64,000 bases of DNA from Prochlorococcus sp. AG-409-A10 (GTDB lineage Bacteria > Cyanobacteriota > Cyanobacteriia > PCC-6307 > Cyanobiaceae): contig QCJG01000003.1 of NCBI GenBank assembly GCA_003216175.1, positions 124,001 through 188,000 of the forward strand. The letters are read 5' to 3'. Shown here in pieces: positions 42,248 to 48,667 of the stretch. The position numbers and the translations under genes are program-made. Position 1 is the first letter of the stretch, and each line of letters starts with the position of its first letter. The notes below the pieces were generated by a model. It had not been told where the DNA came from, did not search any database, and worked only from the letters and a program-made list of their open reading frames with translations.

Positions 42248-43033
42248 CTACTTATTCATTGGGAGCAAGATCAATGAAATCACACAAAAAACACTAATCA
42301 AAGGTCCAGGAGGCAAATTCAAAGTCATAGCCAGCGAAAAACCTATAAGCGATAAAAGTAATCCAAATATGGAGGATCTAGCCATAGCAATCCATAAAGA
42401 ACCAGCTTTCTGTAACCCCAACAAAGTTGGAGTTGAAAGTAACGCAATTACAAGAATGACTCCCACTGCAGACATTGAGCTCACAATGACAAGTGCCGTA
42501 GTAAAACCGAGAGCCAAATTTAAAAAAGAGACATTAACTCCACTTGAAGCAGCTCCTTCTGGGTCTAGGCCAATATGAACAAGCTTGTCGTAACCAAAAA
42601 GCATCAAACAAATAAATACCGAGAAAGCGATCAAAGTTCTTAGCAGATCACTCAAATTTGCAGTTAATAAATCTCCAAATAAAACAGCCTCCAAATCAAT
42701 CCTGATTCCTAATAGAGGTATAAGCAAAACACCGAGCCCCATAGAACCAGCAAGAATTGTATTCATAACCGCTTCATAATTTTGATTTTTTTTATTCGTC
42801 AAACTTTCTGCTGCAATAGCTCCTACCAACCCGCTGATGACTCCACCAATAGAAGGATCTAAACCAAGCGCCATAGCCAAAGCAAGACCTGGCAGCACAC
42901 AATGCGAAATTAAATTAACTTGAAGAAGCCTTTTGTGAGTGATCAATACAGTTCCCATGGCAGGGCAAAGTATTCCTGAGAAGGAAGTTATTAAAAGAGG
43001 AATTGTCCACCAATTTGTATTGAAAAAAGACAT
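42248..43033 (-). CDS. znuB: Zinc ABC transporter permease
   Basis: A 261-residue permease of the ABC-3 family (manganese, zinc and iron chelate type), with about eight membrane spans. The segment ISHCVLPGLALAMALG is the conserved coupling region. It works with ZnuA and ZnuC. It lies on the same strand as znuC but is separated from it by the antisense zur gene, so it needs either its own promoter within zur or a long transcript from znuC. Zinc as the substrate is inferred from the neighbours; a manganese permease is the alternative. Confidence 0.9.
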   Translation of the reverse strand: MSFFNTNWWTIPLLITSFSGILCPAMGTVLITHKRLLQVNLISHCVLPGLALAMALGLDPSIGGVISGLVGAIAAESLTNKKNQNYEAVMNTILAGSMGLGVLLIPLLGIRIDLEAVLFGDLLTANLSDLLRTLIAFSVFICLMLFGYDKLVHIGLDPEGAASSGVNVSFLNLALGFTTALVIVSSMSAVGVILVIALLSTPTLLGLQKAGSLWIAMARSSIFGLLLSLIGFSLAMTLNLPPGPLISVFCVISLILLPMNK

Positions 43034-43050: not shown

Positions 43051-43491
43051 ATGGTCAGTAAGAGAGATCAAGTTAAGATCTTGCTAATGAGTAAAAGAAA
43101 GCCTGAAATCACTAAACGACAACAACAACTGCTCAATGAACTCAAGAACTGTACTGATGAATTGAGTGGGCAAGAGCTGCATAGACAACTTCATAATGGT
43201 GAAAAGGCAATGGGACTGACCACGGTTTATCGAAACCTGCAAGTACTAGTAAAGCAAGGTTTGATTCGTTCCAGACATCTTCCCAACGGTGAGGTTCTTT
43301 ATGCGCCCGTTGAAAGAGATATTCATCATTTAACTTGCGTAAGCTGTGGAGAAACCACACGTTTGAAGGGATGTCCGGTCAAAACGATGGATCTGTCGAA
43401 AAACACTTCTAAAAACTTTGAGCTTTTGTTTCATACTCTTGAGTACTTTGGTCTCTGCCAAACTTGTTCTCAGCAATTGAATGCTGGATAA
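43051..43491 (+). CDS. zur: Fur-family regulator, probable Zur
   Basis: A 146-residue metal-dependent repressor of the Fur superfamily. The N-terminal winged helix holds GLTTVYRNLQVLVKQGLIR, the recognition helix. The C-terminal half has DIHHLTCVSCGE and GLCQTCS, the two CxxC pairs that bind the structural zinc. The location inside the znu genes identifies it as Zur rather than Fur or PerR. The gene starts 17 bases from the znuB start on the other strand; an ATG at 43087 is an alternative start that leaves more room for a promoter. Zur in marine cyanobacteria is known to control zinc import. Confidence 0.88.
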   Translation: MVSKRDQVKILLMSKRKPEITKRQQQLLNELKNCTDELSGQELHRQLHNGEKAMGLTTVYRNLQVLVKQGLIRSRHLPNGEVLYAPVERDIHHLTCVSCGETTRLKGCPVKTMDLSKNTSKNFELLFHTLEYFGLCQTCSQQLNAG

Positions 43492-43514: not shown

Positions 43515-44210
43515 CTATAACTTCCACCTCAAATAATTAATTGAACTAAGTTTTTCTTGAACTTCCTGAGGGCTACCAGAAGCCAAAATAATTTTATCTA
43601 AAGCAACAACCTTGTCATAGGCATTTAAAGATGTTCCCCAGTCATGACTACTAACAAAAACAGTGAACCCAGAATCGGCTAGCTGACGAATGATTAACAG
43701 GAAATCTTCTTTAGCCGGAGGATCAAAGGCGGAGCAAGGTTCATCAAGAAGAAAAATTTTGGCTGGATTCATTAATGTTTTTGCAAGTAATGCTCTTTGT
43801 TGCTGTCCACCAGACAAAGCATCAAGTCTCCTTTTTGCTAAATGAGATATTCCAACACGTTGAAGAGCCGCTTCTAATTCACAACAAGTCGATTTCGAAT
43901 GATTGACTCGACCTAAAGAAACTAATCCTTCAACAGTAATTGGGAAATTCCAATTCAGCTTCCCCCTTTGAGGCATTAAAGCCACTTGAGATCGATTATT
44001 TATCAATGGTTTCCCATCAACAGTAATTTCGCCTTGATCCGGCTTACTACTCCCTTGCAGCAAGCTTAATAAGGTGGACTTACCAGCACCATTCGGACCA
44101 ACAAGAGCAGTCAAAGTACCTTGCTCAAGCTTTAGAGAAACCTTGCTTAAAGCAGGTTTAATTTTACTTGAATAAGAATATGTCAAATTTTCAGCAATCA
44201 AGCTAGGCAT
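43515..44210 (-). CDS. znuC: Zinc ABC transporter ATP-binding protein
   Basis: A 231-residue ABC ATPase. Walker A is GPNGAGKST, the signature LSGGQQQR, and Walker B ends KIFLLDEPCSAFDP. It resembles the ATPases of the manganese/zinc family. I start it at the ATG at 44210 (MPSLIAENLTYSY), because the longer frame to 44246 has a non-homologous N-terminus and would leave the promoter and the Zur-like box too close. It is divergent from znuA and convergent with zur. Confidence 0.92.
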   Translation of the reverse strand: MPSLIAENLTYSYSSKIKPALSKVSLKLEQGTLTALVGPNGAGKSTLLSLLQGSSKPDQGEITVDGKPLINNRSQVALMPQRGKLNWNFPITVEGLVSLGRVNHSKSTCCELEAALQRVGISHLAKRRLDALSGGQQQRALLAKTLMNPAKIFLLDEPCSAFDPPAKEDFLLIIRQLADSGFTVFVSSHDWGTSLNAYDKVVALDKIILASGSPQEVQEKLSSINYLRWKL

Positions 44211-44260
44211 CAAATAGAGGATTTGCTGACAAGAAACATAATACACTTGCCAAGAGCTAA

Positions 44261-44275
44261 TGAAAATGATTATCG
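44261..44275 (+). promoter_or_regulatory. Zur-like box between znuC and znuA
   Basis: TGAAAATGATTATCG agrees with the 7-1-7 Zur consensus of cyanobacteria, TGATAATNATTATCA, at 12 of 14 arm positions. It lies 25 bases before the znuA ATG and about 50 bases before the znuC ATG, so one site could repress both genes. Confidence 0.72.
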
Positions 44276-44299
44276 TTTTAAATACGCTTTATTTTTTTA

Positions 44300-45841
44300 A
44301 TGTCGGATTTTTCAAATCAGTCCAAAAAGGCTAACCCCATAATCAATAAAACATTTCTCAAAAGTTCTCTTGTTGCTGGAACATTTTTATTTTCTGGAAT
44401 CAATCAGACAGCGCAGGCAAATACAAAATCAATTGTTGCTGTAGAGCCATTGGTTTGCGATATTGTCTCTGCGATTGCACCACCCTCAACGCCCGTAACC
44501 TGCTTAATTGACAGAAAGCAAGATGTTCATGATGTCAAGATCACTCCAAGGCAAGCTCAAACACTAAAAAGTGCGAATCAAGTATTTACTCTTGGTTCAG
44601 AGATGACTCCTGCAATTAAAAAATGGTTAGATAATCCCTTAACTGTTGCCATTGGTGTAAGTGCAATAGAAATAGACGATCATGACGACCACGATGATCA
44701 TGGCGATCATTCAGCTGCCAAGCATGACGATCATGACGACCACGATGATCATGGCGATCATTCAGCTGCTAAGCATGATGATCATGACGACCACGATGAT
44801 CATGGCGATGCCCATGGAGAGGGGGCTTTTGAATGGGCTGGTGTTTTTGATCTTTCAGCAGGAGTCTACAAATGGTCTTTTGCCAAAGTTGATGGAGACT
44901 ATGCTGATCCTGCCATGAAAATGGTTATTCTTAAGTCTGGTGATATTGAAGCATCAGAAGAGCTTGCTAAAGAATTATTAGGATCCAAAAATTCAGAAGT
45001 TAAGCGCAATAACGACAAACTTGTTGCACAGGGAAAAGCATATGTTCTTACATTTAATGAAAAAAAAGACATCACAACATTTACTGTAGAAATCAAAAAA
45101 GCTGGTAAATATTCTTTCTTTACTGAGCATATGCCTTTTGAGTTTGAAGCCGACGAACATTTCTTTAAGGATGTTTCAGGCGACGATATTGAACCTATAG
45201 CTCAAGTCCCAGATGAAGGTGATCATCATCATCACCATGATCATGGTGGCTTAGATCCTCATGTCTGGCATGATCCACATAACATCATCAAGATGGGAAA
45301 TGTCATTTCTAAAAATATCAATAAGAAAATTTCCTTCTTTGATAGAGAAACAAAAAAAGTTTTAAAAGAAAGAACTCAATCTGTGAATTCTATTTTGGAA
45401 GATCTCGACTTATGGACTCAAAAACAAGTTGCCACGATTCCTAGCAATCAAAGGACTATCGTTTCTAAGCATAAAGCGATGGAATATTATGGAGATGCAT
45501 TTAGCTTGAAGACCCTTAGCCTACTAGATTTTCTTGGTGATTCATCCAGCCTTAGGCCTCAAACTATTTCAACAGTATTAGCGGAGCTTAAAAAAGAAAA
45601 CGTGAAAGTTTTATTCGCTGAGCAAAAGCCTCCTTCTAAGCTATTGAAAAACCTCAGCAGACAAACTTCCACTCCTATCGCATCAAATCAAATCTATGTT
45701 GACGGTCTAATGCCAACAGGGAATACTGTTTCAGTTGCTGTACACAACACATGCACAATTGTTAATTCACTTGGTGGAGAATGTGATGAGAAAGAGGGCG
45801 ATGAACTTGAGGGGAAATGGAATTCTTTAATTAAGCCTTAA
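44300..45841 (+). CDS. znuA: Zinc-binding periplasmic protein ZnuA with an extra domain
   Basis: The substrate-binding part of the zinc ABC transporter, 513 residues, far longer than the usual 310-330. A signal segment (about 19-40) precedes the first lobe, whose first ligand is probably H77 in QDVHDVKITP. A His/Asp-rich stretch at 126-172 is built from 17-residue repeats. Residues 177-290 are an inserted domain beginning FEWAGVFDL and ending FFTEHMPFEFE, also found in the CobW GTPase at 46224. A second His run (309-316) leads into DPHVWHDP with two more ligands, and SKHKAMEYYGDAF starts the second lobe. The insert and the His repeats replace the normal short His loop. Confidence 0.9.
   Translation: MSDFSNQSKKANPIINKTFLKSSLVAGTFLFSGINQTAQANTKSIVAVEPLVCDIVSAIAPPSTPVTCLIDRKQDVHDVKITPRQAQTLKSANQVFTLGSEMTPAIKKWLDNPLTVAIGVSAIEIDDHDDHDDHGDHSAAKHDDHDDHDDHGDHSAAKHDDHDDHDDHGDAHGEGAFEWAGVFDLSAGVYKWSFAKVDGDYADPAMKMVILKSGDIEASEELAKELLGSKNSEVKRNNDKLVAQGKAYVLTFNEKKDITTFTVEIKKAGKYSFFTEHMPFEFEADEHFFKDVSGDDIEPIAQVPDEGDHHHHHDHGGLDPHVWHDPHNIIKMGNVISKNINKKISFFDRETKKVLKERTQSVNSILEDLDLWTQKQVATIPSNQRTIVSKHKAMEYYGDAFSLKTLSLLDFLGDSSSLRPQTISTVLAELKKENVKVLFAEQKPPSKLLKNLSRQTSTPIASNQIYVDGLMPTGNTVSVAVHNTCTIVNSLGGECDEKEGDELEGKWNSLIKP
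44675..44809 (+). repeat. 51-bp tandem repeat encoding His/Asp motifs in znuA
   Basis: Two complete 51-base units (44675-44725 and 44726-44776) and a 33-base partial unit (44777-44809) encode DDHDDHDDHGDHSAAKH. The units differ by at most one or two silent bases, so the duplication is recent. The array lengthens the metal-binding loop of ZnuA. Confidence 0.92.
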
Positions 45842-45855
45842 CTTTTTCACATAAG

Positions 45856-45888
45856 ATCCTGACTACATTTTAAAAATGTAGTCAGGAT
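45856..45888 (+). other. 13-bp perfect hairpin after znuA
   Basis: ATCCTGACTACAT (45856-45868) pairs perfectly with ATGTAGTCAGGAT (45876-45888) across a seven-base loop. There is no T-run on either strand, so it is not a standard terminator. It ends eight bases before the next start codon, in a place where it could limit read-through, protect the znuA messenger, or hide the ribosome site of the next gene. Confidence 0.75.
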
Positions 45889-45896
45889 TATAAAAA

Positions 45897-46214
45897 ATGT
45901 TTCCAACTAAAGGATATAAAGCTTATAAACAACACTGGGAAGATCAGGCAGGTTTCATGGATAAACCACCATGGGATAAAGATAAGATCTTAAAACTTAC
46001 TATCTTAACTGATTTTGATGACAATCTAAAAGAACTTAAATTTTCAAATCATTCGCTTAAGAAAGAGAATGGCAAACTTACTTTAAGACTAAAAGTTCCT
46101 TACAATTATTATGAGCTTGATGACTTTGAATTAAAATCACTTGAATTGTTGGGTATCCAAAAAAATTGGCTAACTGATATTTCTCTTGATAGCTCGCATT
46201 GTTCACATCGTTAA
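45897..46214 (+). CDS. Hypothetical protein in the zinc locus
   Basis: A 105-residue soluble protein that I do not recognise. It starts FPTKGYKAYKQHWEDQAGFM after the Met and ends in a short DSSHCSHR with one Cys and two His. It has no signal peptide or membrane span, so it should be cytosolic. It sits between znuA and the CobW GTPase, nine bases before the latter, so co-translation and a related function are likely. It lacks a clear ribosome-binding site and follows a hairpin. Confidence 0.65.
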   Translation: MFPTKGYKAYKQHWEDQAGFMDKPPWDKDKILKLTILTDFDDNLKELKFSNHSLKKENGKLTLRLKVPYNYYELDDFELKSLELLGIQKNWLTDISLDSSHCSHR

Positions 46215-46223
46215 TCAAAGGAA

Positions 46224-47606
46224 ATGAGCAACACGCAAAAAGTACCGGTTACAATATTGACTGGCTTTCTAGGATCTGGCAAAACAACCCTACTCAATCG
46301 AATCCTGAGCGAAGAGCACGGTAAAAAAATAGCTGTTATTGAGAATGAATATGGTGAAGTTGGCATTGATCAGGGATTAGTAATCAATGCTGACGAAGAG
46401 GTCTTCGAGATGTCTAATGGTTGCATCTGCTGCACCGTACGTGGAGATTTAATTCGTGTACTTGGGAACCTCATGAAGAGGCGAGACAAATTCGACTATG
46501 TATTAGTTGAAACTACTGGTCTTGCTGATCCTGGTCCAGTAGCTCAGACGTTCTTTATGGACGATGAAATCCGTGATGAGTTTTCACTCGATGGCATAGT
46601 CACACTTGTGGACGCAGCCCACATAGAACAACAACTGGGTCGAAGTGATGAAAGTTCGGAGCAAGTTGCCTTCGCTGACGTCCTTGTTCTAAATAAAACT
46701 GATCTAGTTTCAGATGAATCACTCGACAACTTAGAGTCACGGCTACGCGATATGAATCGTATGGCTCGTGTAATACGCAGTAAACAGGCAGACGTCTCAA
46801 TTGATACTGTGCTAAATCTAAGTGCTTTTGATCTAGATCAAGTACTTCAGCGTCGTCCAACTTTTCTTGAACCAGAATATCCATTTGAATGGACAGGTGT
46901 ATTTTCACTTGAAGAAGGTCGCTATGAACTTACGCTCGAAGAAGGGCCAGACCCCACAATGTCTCTCGTCCTGTTATCAGACCAAGGTAAAGACGAGACA
47001 GCTTTCATTACAGGCGCTGAATCATGCGTGAGGCTCTACGCAGAACAAGAACAACCTATGAATCCAGGGGATATAATTCCAGTCGGCAAGCATATGAGCC
47101 TTCAACTTCAATCCGAAGGGACTAAGTCCTTCTTCATAGATGTTGATAAGGCAAGGGATATAAGTCTATTCACTCAACATACAGCCGAAGAATTTAATAT
47201 GAAATTAACGAAAGTAAATACTCCTTCTACAGACGCGATAGATAATGATCAGAATATCTCTACAATTTCTCCAATAGCTGAGAGAACTTGGGTGGCTGAG
47301 CACGAGCACGACGATGAAGTGGGTTCATTTGCTATCGAACGAGTAGGCGATGTAGATCCTGAAAAACTCAATAGGTGGTTAAGTCGACTGCTATCAGAAA
47401 AAGGGGTGGATATCTTTCGTACAAAAGGGTTTATTAGTTATGCGGGAGAATCTAGGCGAATAGTTTTTCAAGGTGTACACATGCTCTTCACAGCTCAACC
47501 TGATAAAGAATGGGGCAATGAACCTCGCCGCAACCAACTCGTCTTTATCGGTAGAAATCTTGATGAAGCAGAAATGAGTAGAGAGTTTGACAAATGTCTG
47601 GTATAG
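46224..47606 (+). CDS. CobW/COG0523 GTPase with an inserted domain, probable zinc chaperone
   Basis: A 460-residue P-loop GTPase of the COG0523 family. Walker A is GFLGSGKT (14-21), the metal-binding CxCC motif is C67-C70 in NGCICCTV, and NKTD (157-160) gives guanine specificity. The CobW_C domain is at about 364-460. Between the two lies an insert at 221-330 (FEWTGVF to FTQHTAEEF) that is homologous to the insert in ZnuA. Low-zinc-induced COG0523 proteins deliver zinc to enzymes, and the position favours zinc over cobalt or nickel here. It overlaps the WD40 gene by 13 bases. Confidence 0.9.
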   Translation: MSNTQKVPVTILTGFLGSGKTTLLNRILSEEHGKKIAVIENEYGEVGIDQGLVINADEEVFEMSNGCICCTVRGDLIRVLGNLMKRRDKFDYVLVETTGLADPGPVAQTFFMDDEIRDEFSLDGIVTLVDAAHIEQQLGRSDESSEQVAFADVLVLNKTDLVSDESLDNLESRLRDMNRMARVIRSKQADVSIDTVLNLSAFDLDQVLQRRPTFLEPEYPFEWTGVFSLEEGRYELTLEEGPDPTMSLVLLSDQGKDETAFITGAESCVRLYAEQEQPMNPGDIIPVGKHMSLQLQSEGTKSFFIDVDKARDISLFTQHTAEEFNMKLTKVNTPSTDAIDNDQNISTISPIAERTWVAEHEHDDEVGSFAIERVGDVDPEKLNRWLSRLLSEKGVDIFRTKGFISYAGESRRIVFQGVHMLFTAQPDKEWGNEPRRNQLVFIGRNLDEAEMSREFDKCLV

Positions 47607-48667
47607 AAGCATTTAGTCCAAAGGGAATGCTTCATGAAGGTTGGTCTGCGCAAGTTGAAGACTATGCGATTGTCTGCGGCTGGGCACTACATGGTAAAAC
47701 CTTTTTAGTAGGTGATGTTGCTGGAGGGCTCTACGCATTTGAGGGGAAATCTGGAAAGCTCATTTGGCAATTCAAAGACATACATAGAGGTGGCTTACTA
47801 GCAATGTCTATTCATCCAGATGGAAATACTTTCGCAACTGCTGGCCAGGATGGACATGTGTCTATATGGGAAAGCAAAGAGGGTAAGTCAACTAAAAATT
47901 TGGAACTTGGGAAAGGATGGGTTGAACACATTAAGTGGTCACCAGACGGAAAATTTTTAGCAGTAGTTTTTACTAAATACGTCTATGTTTTTGATGAAAA
48001 CGGTCAAGAACATTGGCGATCAGAGGAGCATCCCAGTACTGTCAGCGCGATTTCTTGGTCTAATTCCAATGAGTTAGCGACAGCATGCTACGGCCAAGTA
48101 ACTTTTTTTGATGTAGTAAGCGACAAGATCAATCAAAAGTTGGAGTGGCGAGGCTCACTAGTATCTATGGTTCTTAGTCCAGATGGAGACATAGTGGCAT
48201 GCGGAAGTCAGGATAATTCTGTTCATTTCTGGCGCCGTTCAACTGATCAAGATTCGGAGATGACAGGCTACCCAGGTAAACCAAGCCACCTAGCTTTTGA
48301 TCAAACCGGCACAGTCCTTGCTACTGGGGGTAGTGATCGAGTGACGGTTTGGAGTTTTCAAGGCGATGGCCCTGAGGGCACTGTGCCAGGAGAGTTAATG
48401 CTTCATACGGAACCCATTTCATGCCTTGCTTTCTCACATAGCGGGATGCTTTTAGCTTCTGGCGCAAGAGATGGTTCAGTTTTTTCTTGGTTTCTCCAAA
48501 AAGATGGTCAGGGTGATCCTGTTGGTGGTGCATTTGCAGGTGACCTTGTAAGCCAAATCGCTTGGCATCCTGAGGACACTGCCTTAGCTGCAATAAATGC
48601 AAACGGAGGAATTACGGTTTGGGAATTTAAGGTTCGGACAAAAACGGCACCTCAAGGATTCGGATAA
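47594..48667 (+). CDS. WD40-repeat protein
   Basis: A 357-residue beta-propeller made of about seven WD40 repeats, read from recurring GH/GD-type turns and closing motifs such as GHVSIWE, NSVHFWRR, DRVTVWSF, GSVFSWFL and GGITVWEF. It has no signal peptide. The 13-base overlap with the CobW gene implies a functional pair; WD40 proteins next to COG0523 GTPases recur in marine cyanobacteria to my recollection. A scaffold for the GTPase and its clients is a reasonable guess. Confidence 0.88.
   Translation: MSGIEAFSPKGMLHEGWSAQVEDYAIVCGWALHGKTFLVGDVAGGLYAFEGKSGKLIWQFKDIHRGGLLAMSIHPDGNTFATAGQDGHVSIWESKEGKSTKNLELGKGWVEHIKWSPDGKFLAVVFTKYVYVFDENGQEHWRSEEHPSTVSAISWSNSNELATACYGQVTFFDVVSDKINQKLEWRGSLVSMVLSPDGDIVACGSQDNSVHFWRRSTDQDSEMTGYPGKPSHLAFDQTGTVLATGGSDRVTVWSFQGDGPEGTVPGELMLHTEPISCLAFSHSGMLLASGARDGSVFSWFLQKDGQGDPVGGAFAGDLVSQIAWHPEDTALAAINANGGITVWEFKVRTKTAPQGFG

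Follow-up and report, generated by a model that had tools for sequence, protein, structure and literature searches.

Within COG0523, subfamily 5 is described as containing prokaryotic GTPases encoded beside WD40-repeat genes and znuABC, together with most eukaryotic COG0523 members (Haas et al. 2009, PMC2770081); the parts of that paper available to us mention no inserted domain in their account of the subfamily. Zinc substrate-binding proteins (SBPs) of the ZnuA type, such as Synechocystis ZnuA, belong to PF01297 and carry a histidine-rich loop, a feature of zinc-binding proteins also described in the accessible part of PMC8786288. Proteins of both kinds are encoded close together in a 64,000-nucleotide stretch of Prochlorococcus sp. 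AG-409-A10 (contig QCJG01000003.1, positions 124,001 to 188,000; the whole stretch analysed is called the window), from a genome of 1.58 Mb in 29 contigs, 90% complete. Each of the two proteins holds an additional insert, and we find that these inserts are homologous copies of one domain of about 110 residues, which is unnamed as far as comparisons with Pfam-A, NCBIfam and the Protein Data Bank (PDB) reach. The domain is real and its scope is wider than was claimed when the two inserts were first compared; a metal-handling module is our best, still unproven, reading of its role.

The window ZnuA agrees with the described type in both its profile and its loop, which precedes the second lobe. 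It is a PF01297-type protein that would, by family, bind and transport zinc, and it differs in that its loop accommodates a folded domain some 110 residues long, an insertion with a parallel in haloarchaeal SBPs. The window GTPase shares with subfamily 5 the cobW and CobW_C domains, the GCICC motif, and WD40 and znu neighbours, and adds the domain between its GTPase and C-terminal parts. Because its neighbours agree with those given in the available text of PMC2770081, it fits subfamily 5, by neighbourhood rather than by tree. A literature search found no account of an inserted domain in ZnuA or COG0523, though the ZnuA insert may have been noted before. As far as PMC8786288 was available to us, the picocyanobacterial ZnuA cluster defined there is almost absent from Prochlorococcus; that clustering may have assigned the divergent ZnuA with its insert to another group.

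A shared domain in ZnuA and a COG0523 GTPase

By BLASTP, the two proteins matched with 40.4 bits (E = 7e-8) at 24% identity, in an alignment of ZnuA residues 174-345 with GTPase residues 218-387 that takes in the inserts plus some residues past them. When the GTPase insert was searched against its own genome, the sole other match at E ≤ 10 was the ZnuA insert (E = 9.4e-6, 31% identity). Smith-Waterman alignment of the inserts scored 94 against a shuffled mean of 27 (standard deviation 4.4), with none of 5000 shuffles as high. With their inserts removed, the proteins scored 38 against a shuffled mean of 37.5, and 219 of 500 shuffles did as well; since the insert-free proteins score at the shuffled level, the similarity resides in the inserts. 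Profile-profile comparison of 28 GTPase rows with 21 ZnuA rows gave a probability of 98% and E = 2.5e-13 over 104 columns. An intermediate sequence, the GTPase of genome G048, matches the ZnuA insert at E = 9.9e-10 and the GTPase insert at 3.7e-25.

AlphaFold2 modelled the GTPase copy confidently from the 28 GTPase rows (predicted local distance difference test, pLDDT, 92.7; predicted template modelling score, pTM, 0.85), placing strands at residues 6-13, 16-22 and 29-36, a helix at 42-57, and further strands at 61-63, 74-78, 85-91, 95-101 and 111-114. The ZnuA copy, modelled from the 21 ZnuA rows only, reached modest confidence (pLDDT 68.2, pTM 0.67, 19 residues below 50), with strands at 6-13, 16-23 and 36-40, a helix at 44-56, and strands at 75-78, 86-93, 97-103 and 117-119. 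The order of strands and helix is alike in the two models except for one short strand, the models having been built from separate alignments and compared by order. Both are consistent with a compact, jelly-roll-like β-sandwich with one helix.

No Pfam or NCBIfam family covers either insert in the window proteins. A Pfam scan of 14 diverse inserts gave a best E of 0.038, every listed family being found in one of the 14 rows only, and a sequence-profile search of the PDB gave nothing convincing; its best match, interleukin-12 beta at E = 0.42, was dismissed. Foldseek found no PDB chain at E ≤ 0.001 with either model. Its weaker matches (best E of 0.030 and 0.018; template modelling scores no higher than about 0.45 among the 50 matches listed per model) include C1q, TNF, PA14/Epa1, GOLD, CBM35 and CBM61 sandwiches. 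The domain thus bears a weak structural resemblance to jelly-roll-like sandwiches (PA14/Epa1, C1q/TNF, GOLD, CBM35), but differs from them in lacking a match below that threshold or convincing sequence kinship. A cupredoxin fold was also considered and rejected: one of the 14 rows matches the Pfam family Copper-bind, at E = 0.06 only, and nothing called a cupredoxin occurs among the 50 Foldseek matches listed for each model.

The sequence-only reading, which had first compared the two inserts, placed both open reading frames (ORFs) and both inserts correctly. Its central claim of a shared, unnamed domain is upheld by the pairwise searches and the empty family scans, and two of the checks it had proposed, profile comparison and structure prediction, came out significant and compatible, respectively.

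Hosts and distribution of the domain

Within the genus, the GTPase copy occurs in 33 of the 37 genomes searched, the window's own included; the four matchless genomes are 51-84% complete. Of 388 genomes sampled from the class, 35 reach E ≤ 0.01; one of these, G397, is probably a chance hit: its partial match (C84:45643-45852, E = 7.5e-4) lies in a repeat-rich frame of 969 amino acids. In the phyla of four further loci, matches at E ≤ 1e-4 were found in 16 of 247 genomes (Acidobacteriota locus), 19 of 251 (Chloroflexota), 8 of 64 (Gemmatimonadota) and 2 of 398 (Gammaproteobacteria), each count including its centre genome, already known to match. A pattern scan of named genomes confirmed at least 542 stretches, and the best 80 of these 542, which we examined, include Aphanocapsa lilacina, a Bryobacteraceae bacterium, Chloroflexota, Gammaproteobacteria, Gemmatimonadota and a Rickettsiales record. 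All 17 non-cyanobacterial stretches among these 80 encode GTPases in which the insert again separates the cobW and CobW_C domains, some of them truncated at contig ends. Plasmid-borne GTPase copies were found in Pantoea and Paraburkholderia, that of Pantoea soli being apparently broken. The domain is the hallmark of a GTPase subfamily found in Cyanobacteria, Chloroflexota, Acidobacteriota, Gemmatimonadota and Pseudomonadota.

In 57 of 57 picocyanobacterial loci, and in 25 of the 27 others with enough sequence, a WD40 gene comes after the GTPase gene. The two without it are L100 and L113; the 27 count one Aphanocapsa locus twice (L105, L116) and include a broken one (L115), and L257, which matched another GTPase gene, was left out of the downstream count. 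GTPase and WD40 genes form a conserved pair, and they overlap in the window. By comparison, znuA lies no more than 1.5 kb upstream of the GTPase gene in 51 of 57 picocyanobacterial loci and in 1 of 26 others. Over all loci we tallied 202 GTPase, 119 ZnuA and 11 other ORFs, figures that count the same gene repeatedly where loci overlap; 16 of the 119 ZnuA ORFs hold a partial match only, and one of the others (L222) is a GTPase fragment. The GCICC motif is present in all 202 GTPase-labelled ORFs, a labelling that itself used P-loop or CxCC patterns. A phage or virus origin was rejected: one scan of viral contigs gave 15 pattern matches, none confirmed as a relative, and a phage collection searched with the ZnuA insert held no relative.

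Searched with the ZnuA insert, 30 of the 37 genomes of the genus carry the domain in ZnuA, four have no match, and G006, G008 and G017 match in the GTPase only. In G008 the ZnuA loop consists of His/Asp repeats alone, and alignment places the window domain within that loop; znuA of G006 and G017 may simply be missing, because the GTPase gene lies near a contig end there. Among eight family genomes searched with whole ZnuA, seven (G008, G209, G256, G321, G309, G174 and G236) match outside the insert only and G154 has no match at all. In the six of these seven other than G008, the matching ZnuA-like ORFs are 298-359 amino acids long. Five ZnuA ORFs carry two full copies in tandem with no run of N between them, for example in G113 (L096:4712-6556) and at L146:3415-5262 and L190:3367-5271, all Prochlorococcus relatives; an 873-amino-acid ZnuA frame of G216 with two copies was set aside for the N run that separates them.

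Copies beyond these two families came from a tblastn search of 72,556 plasmid records with the ZnuA insert, which matched eight. Four of the eight (two Haloarcula, Halorientalis and Halorubrum) encode zinc SBPs in which the domain sits inside a His-rich loop, with His stretches flanking it on both sides; PF01297 was found in both proteins scanned. These genes adjoin ATP-binding cassette (ABC) transporter genes, and in Halorubrum and Haloarcula halophila two genes for GTP-binding proteins lie a few genes upstream, the one scanned having both cobW and CobW_C. The H. halophila plasmid has a second, frame-broken copy of the SBP gene (L202:3467-4183, record 361759-362475), preceded by the same genes as the intact copy elsewhere on it. 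In Natrinema, Halomontanus and Halosolutus, the domain forms stand-alone proteins made of a secretion-type start, the domain, His stretches and little else; by reading of the sequence, the start is twin-arginine-like with a lipobox-like Cys. The Natrinema versiforme copy (L198:3887-4438) immediately follows genes annotated as the alpha and gamma subunits of urease, ureG, ureD, ureE and ureF, and is possibly a nickel protein. In Alicyclobacillus curvatus, a 303-amino-acid membrane protein with five hydrophobic segments holds the domain as a His-flanked loop between segments 2 and 3, and its gene adjoins cation-transporter and metal-regulator genes. This protein has no convincing Pfam match and no NCBIfam match; its H-x4-DH motif is reminiscent of nickel/cobalt permeases.

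The four kinds of host are metal-related by family or neighbourhood, save two of the three stand-alone copies. The link to metal homeostasis that had been read from the window alone thus extends to copies found well past the picocyanobacteria, in other bacteria and in haloarchaea. Two of the original statements need narrowing. The module is not clearly one of zinc, given the stand-alone copy behind genes for urease, a nickel enzyme. The insert is indeed unusual for ZnuA, which is domain-free in G008 and six other picocyanobacterial genomes, but not for the GTPase, where it belongs to a widespread subfamily.

Conserved residues and proposed role

Conservation was tabulated over 75 rows, 72 of them thinned from 220 at 0.88 similarity and three added (L254-L256), with the frame-broken Haloarcula copy left out. 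The signature of the domain is E-W-x-G ... D-P-x-M ... H-x-x-x-E. All 75 rows share the Glu of E-W, a Gly and both named residues of H-x3-E; 74 have the Asp of D-P-x-M. Because the Glu, His and Glu do not vary between cytosolic and external copies or between bacteria and archaea, they look like zinc-, nickel- or cobalt-type ligands. Three invariant side chains of this kind appear to favour metal or ligand binding; together with the near-invariant Asp they may form a metal site, and we infer the metal and the direction of transfer in the same manner.

The surroundings of the domain are rich in histidine outside the cytosol. Within 60 residues on either side, histidine makes up 15.4% in 83 picocyanobacterial ZnuA copies, 15.8% in three haloarchaeal SBPs and 8.3-14.4% in L197-L200 (one protein each), as against 0-2.4% outside the flanks of these hosts. 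Among GTPases, an HxH[DN] motif lies 17-45 residues past the domain in 150 of the 152 distinct proteins with sufficient tail, the other two having HEHDS and HRHSD in its place. Purifying selection acts on each of the two copies in the genus: the median ratio of nonsynonymous to synonymous substitution rates (dN/dS) is 0.151 for the ZnuA copy and 0.183 for the GTPase copy (29 comparisons each, after dropping relatives with an identical protein or below 70% identity; a control on the ZnuA C-lobe yielded one usable comparison only).

We regard it as an even call that the domain is a portable module that binds or hands off a first-row metal, zinc and perhaps nickel or cobalt, and so aids uptake or transfer. 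In ZnuA it would capture scarce zinc outside the membrane and send it by way of the His-rich loop to the cleft that binds it; the GTPase copy, beside the HxHD linker, would load or release metal in the course of the GTP cycle. More tentatively, and somewhat short of that, we suggest an ancient, undescribed metal-handling domain used on both sides of the membrane in Bacteria and Archaea, inserted repeatedly into uptake proteins, permeases, secreted proteins and metallochaperone GTPases, and serving in open-ocean cyanobacteria as part of zinc scavenging at extremely low concentrations. If this is true, a name can be given to a component so far missing from bacterial and archaeal metal homeostasis. 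The aligned rows would then yield a profile able to annotate hundreds of proteins (at least 542 stretches) left blank by Pfam-A and NCBIfam, and the membrane protein and the stand-alone proteins of haloarchaea would be marked as probable metal proteins. Prochlorococcus relatives whose ZnuA holds the domain, lacks it (as in G008) or has tandem copies would amount to a natural experiment on open-ocean zinc scavenging.

Several observations weigh against a metal module. Two stand-alone copies (L199, L200) have no metal-named gene in the stretch examined. The GTPase copies lack His-rich flanks overall (1.9% against 1.6% elsewhere), and the HxH[DN] count covers domain-bearing COG0523 proteins only. 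The GTPase copy is far less constrained than the C-terminal part of the protein (dN/dS 0.183 against 0.018, 27 comparisons). Some rows were collected by patterns containing FEW and FTxH, which biases the table toward conservation of these motifs, although the remaining rows were collected by profile or BLAST without them. YjiA, a COG0523 protein of known structure, aligns solely with the parts beyond the insert; since YjiA and some ZnuA-like proteins are without it, the domain is not essential to either family. Finally, the invariant residues may instead serve folding or another ligand.

It is unlikely, though worth serious thought, that the domain is a protein-docking β-sandwich without a metal site of its own, binding the WD40 protein or a client enzyme in the GTPase and a permease or cell-surface partner in ZnuA. 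β-Sandwich domains often bind proteins, the near-constant WD40 gene behind the GTPase gene could supply a fixed partner, and the GTPase copy is more variable than the part of the protein C-terminal to it. Such docking sits poorly with stand-alone haloarchaeal proteins that contain barely more than the domain, with hosts on both sides of the membrane that have no known common partner, and with an invariant set (Glu, Gly, His, Glu) that makes up no hydrophobic patch. The specific suggestion that the domain docks to membrane partners is a poorer fit for the cytosolic and stand-alone copies.

We find it improbable to a like degree that the domain recognises chelated metal or some other small ligand (a metallophore, citrate, histidine, or a sugar in the manner of PA14 or CBM domains), so that metal would enter in complexed form. 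Ligand-binding sandwiches, PA14, CBM35 and CBM61 among them, do occur in the weak Foldseek matches, and extracytoplasmic copies could encounter such ligands; but no fold match reached E ≤ 0.001, and a free chelate is harder to reconcile with the cytosolic GTPase copy.

The relation between the two copies bears on a further alternative, that the ZnuA copy is a recent in-genome duplicate of the neighbouring GTPase insert and serves no conserved function. In its favour, the genes lie 0.4 kb from each other and, among bacteria, domain-bearing ZnuA was seen in picocyanobacteria only. The ZnuA insert is, by contrast, 24-34% identical to each of 12 alignment rows, GTPase and extracytoplasmic alike (a second Prochlorococcus ZnuA row excepted), and recent copying from the neighbouring gene is therefore disfavoured. 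In a tree of the 75 rows over 119 columns, the 13 picocyanobacterial ZnuA copies group together (support 100/99), and a branch with support 96/91 joins them with seven haloarchaeal copies and the Alicyclobacillus copy, apart from all 54 GTPase copies. The ZnuA copy thus groups with extracytoplasmic copies rather than with its neighbour, tentatively so because the columns are few, the bootstraps unsettled and the meeting branches long (the ZnuA stem has 2.21 changes per column). With the dN/dS of the ZnuA copy also against it, a recent duplicate seems very improbable. Scarcely credible is a resemblance by chance or convergence between different folds: the low identities and the modest ZnuA model would allow it, but the shuffles and the insert-free control rule out chance similarity, and the profile match, the common order of motifs, strands and helix, and intermediates such as the G048 GTPase argue for kinship.

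Features of the Prochlorococcus locus

Table 1. Features of the znu-GTPase region, in window coordinates (aa, amino acids).
Feature	Position	Strand	Basis
znuB-like permease gene	42248..43033	-	ORF; name by reading of sequence
Fur-family regulator gene (Zur-like)	43051..43491	+	ORF; name by reading of sequence
znuC-like ATPase gene	43515..44246	-	ORF; name by reading of sequence
Near-palindrome AAAATGATTATCGTTTT between znuC and znuA, candidate Zur operator	44263..44279	.	position and symmetry
znuA, zinc ABC transporter substrate-binding protein, 513 aa, host of copy 1	44300..45841	+	ORF; Pfam PF01297, E=5.6e-44
His/Asp-rich loop segment ahead of domain (about aa 126-173 of ZnuA)	44675..44818	+	sequence; domain-free counterpart loop in G008
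Shared domain copy 1, ZnuA aa ~176-288	44825..45163	+	BLASTP, profile-profile, shuffles, AlphaFold2 model
Codon of ZnuA Glu178, invariant	44831..44833	+	75/75 alignment rows
Codon of ZnuA Asp203	44906..44908	+	74/75 alignment rows
HxxxE motif, ZnuA His277 and Glu281, both invariant	45128..45142	+	75/75 rows each
Second His-rich segment DEGDHHHHHDHGG, immediately ahead of DPHVWHDPHN motif of ZnuA lobe	45212..45250	+	sequence
105-aa ORF between znuA and GTPase gene	45897..46214	+	ORF listing
COG0523/CobW-family GTPase gene, 460 aa, host of copy 2	46224..47606	+	Pfam: cobW 1.4e-61 (aa 8-184), CobW_C 1.3e-25 (aa 367-459)
Shared domain copy 2, GTPase aa ~218-329	46875..47210	+	BLASTP, profile searches, AlphaFold2 model
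Codon of GTPase Glu222, invariant	46887..46889	+	75/75 rows
Codon of GTPase Asp243	46950..46952	+	74/75 rows
HxxxE motif, GTPase His319 and Glu323, invariant	47178..47192	+	75/75 rows each
EHEHDDE motif, linker joining domain to CobW_C	47298..47318	+	HxH[DN][DENA]-type motif after domain in 150/152 GTPases
WD40-repeat protein gene, start overlaps GTPase gene end	47594..48667	+	ORF, Pfam

The ZnuA protein begins with a signal-peptide-like start, as read from its residues, and continues with the His-rich loop and the DPHVWHDP lobe. An NCBIfam match to ZrgA stops at residue 174, on the loop, and the conserved tail after the domain extends to about residue 304 (Table 1).

The near-palindrome AAAATGATTATCGTTTT has two mismatches against its own opposite strand and is possibly a Zur operator, judging from its place and symmetry. 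A scan with its own pattern gave 10 matches against a chance expectation of 5.1, equalled by 6 of 100 shuffles, and adds no evidence.

Diatom zinc-response proteins were considered as possible further carriers of the motif; the available part of PMC9010474, where ZCRP-B is called NikA-like, lent this no support, and no diatom sequence was searched. The 105-residue ORF between znuA and the GTPase gene has no convincing Pfam match (best E 0.63), and G008 (locus L063) has a counterpart of it at the same position between the two genes.

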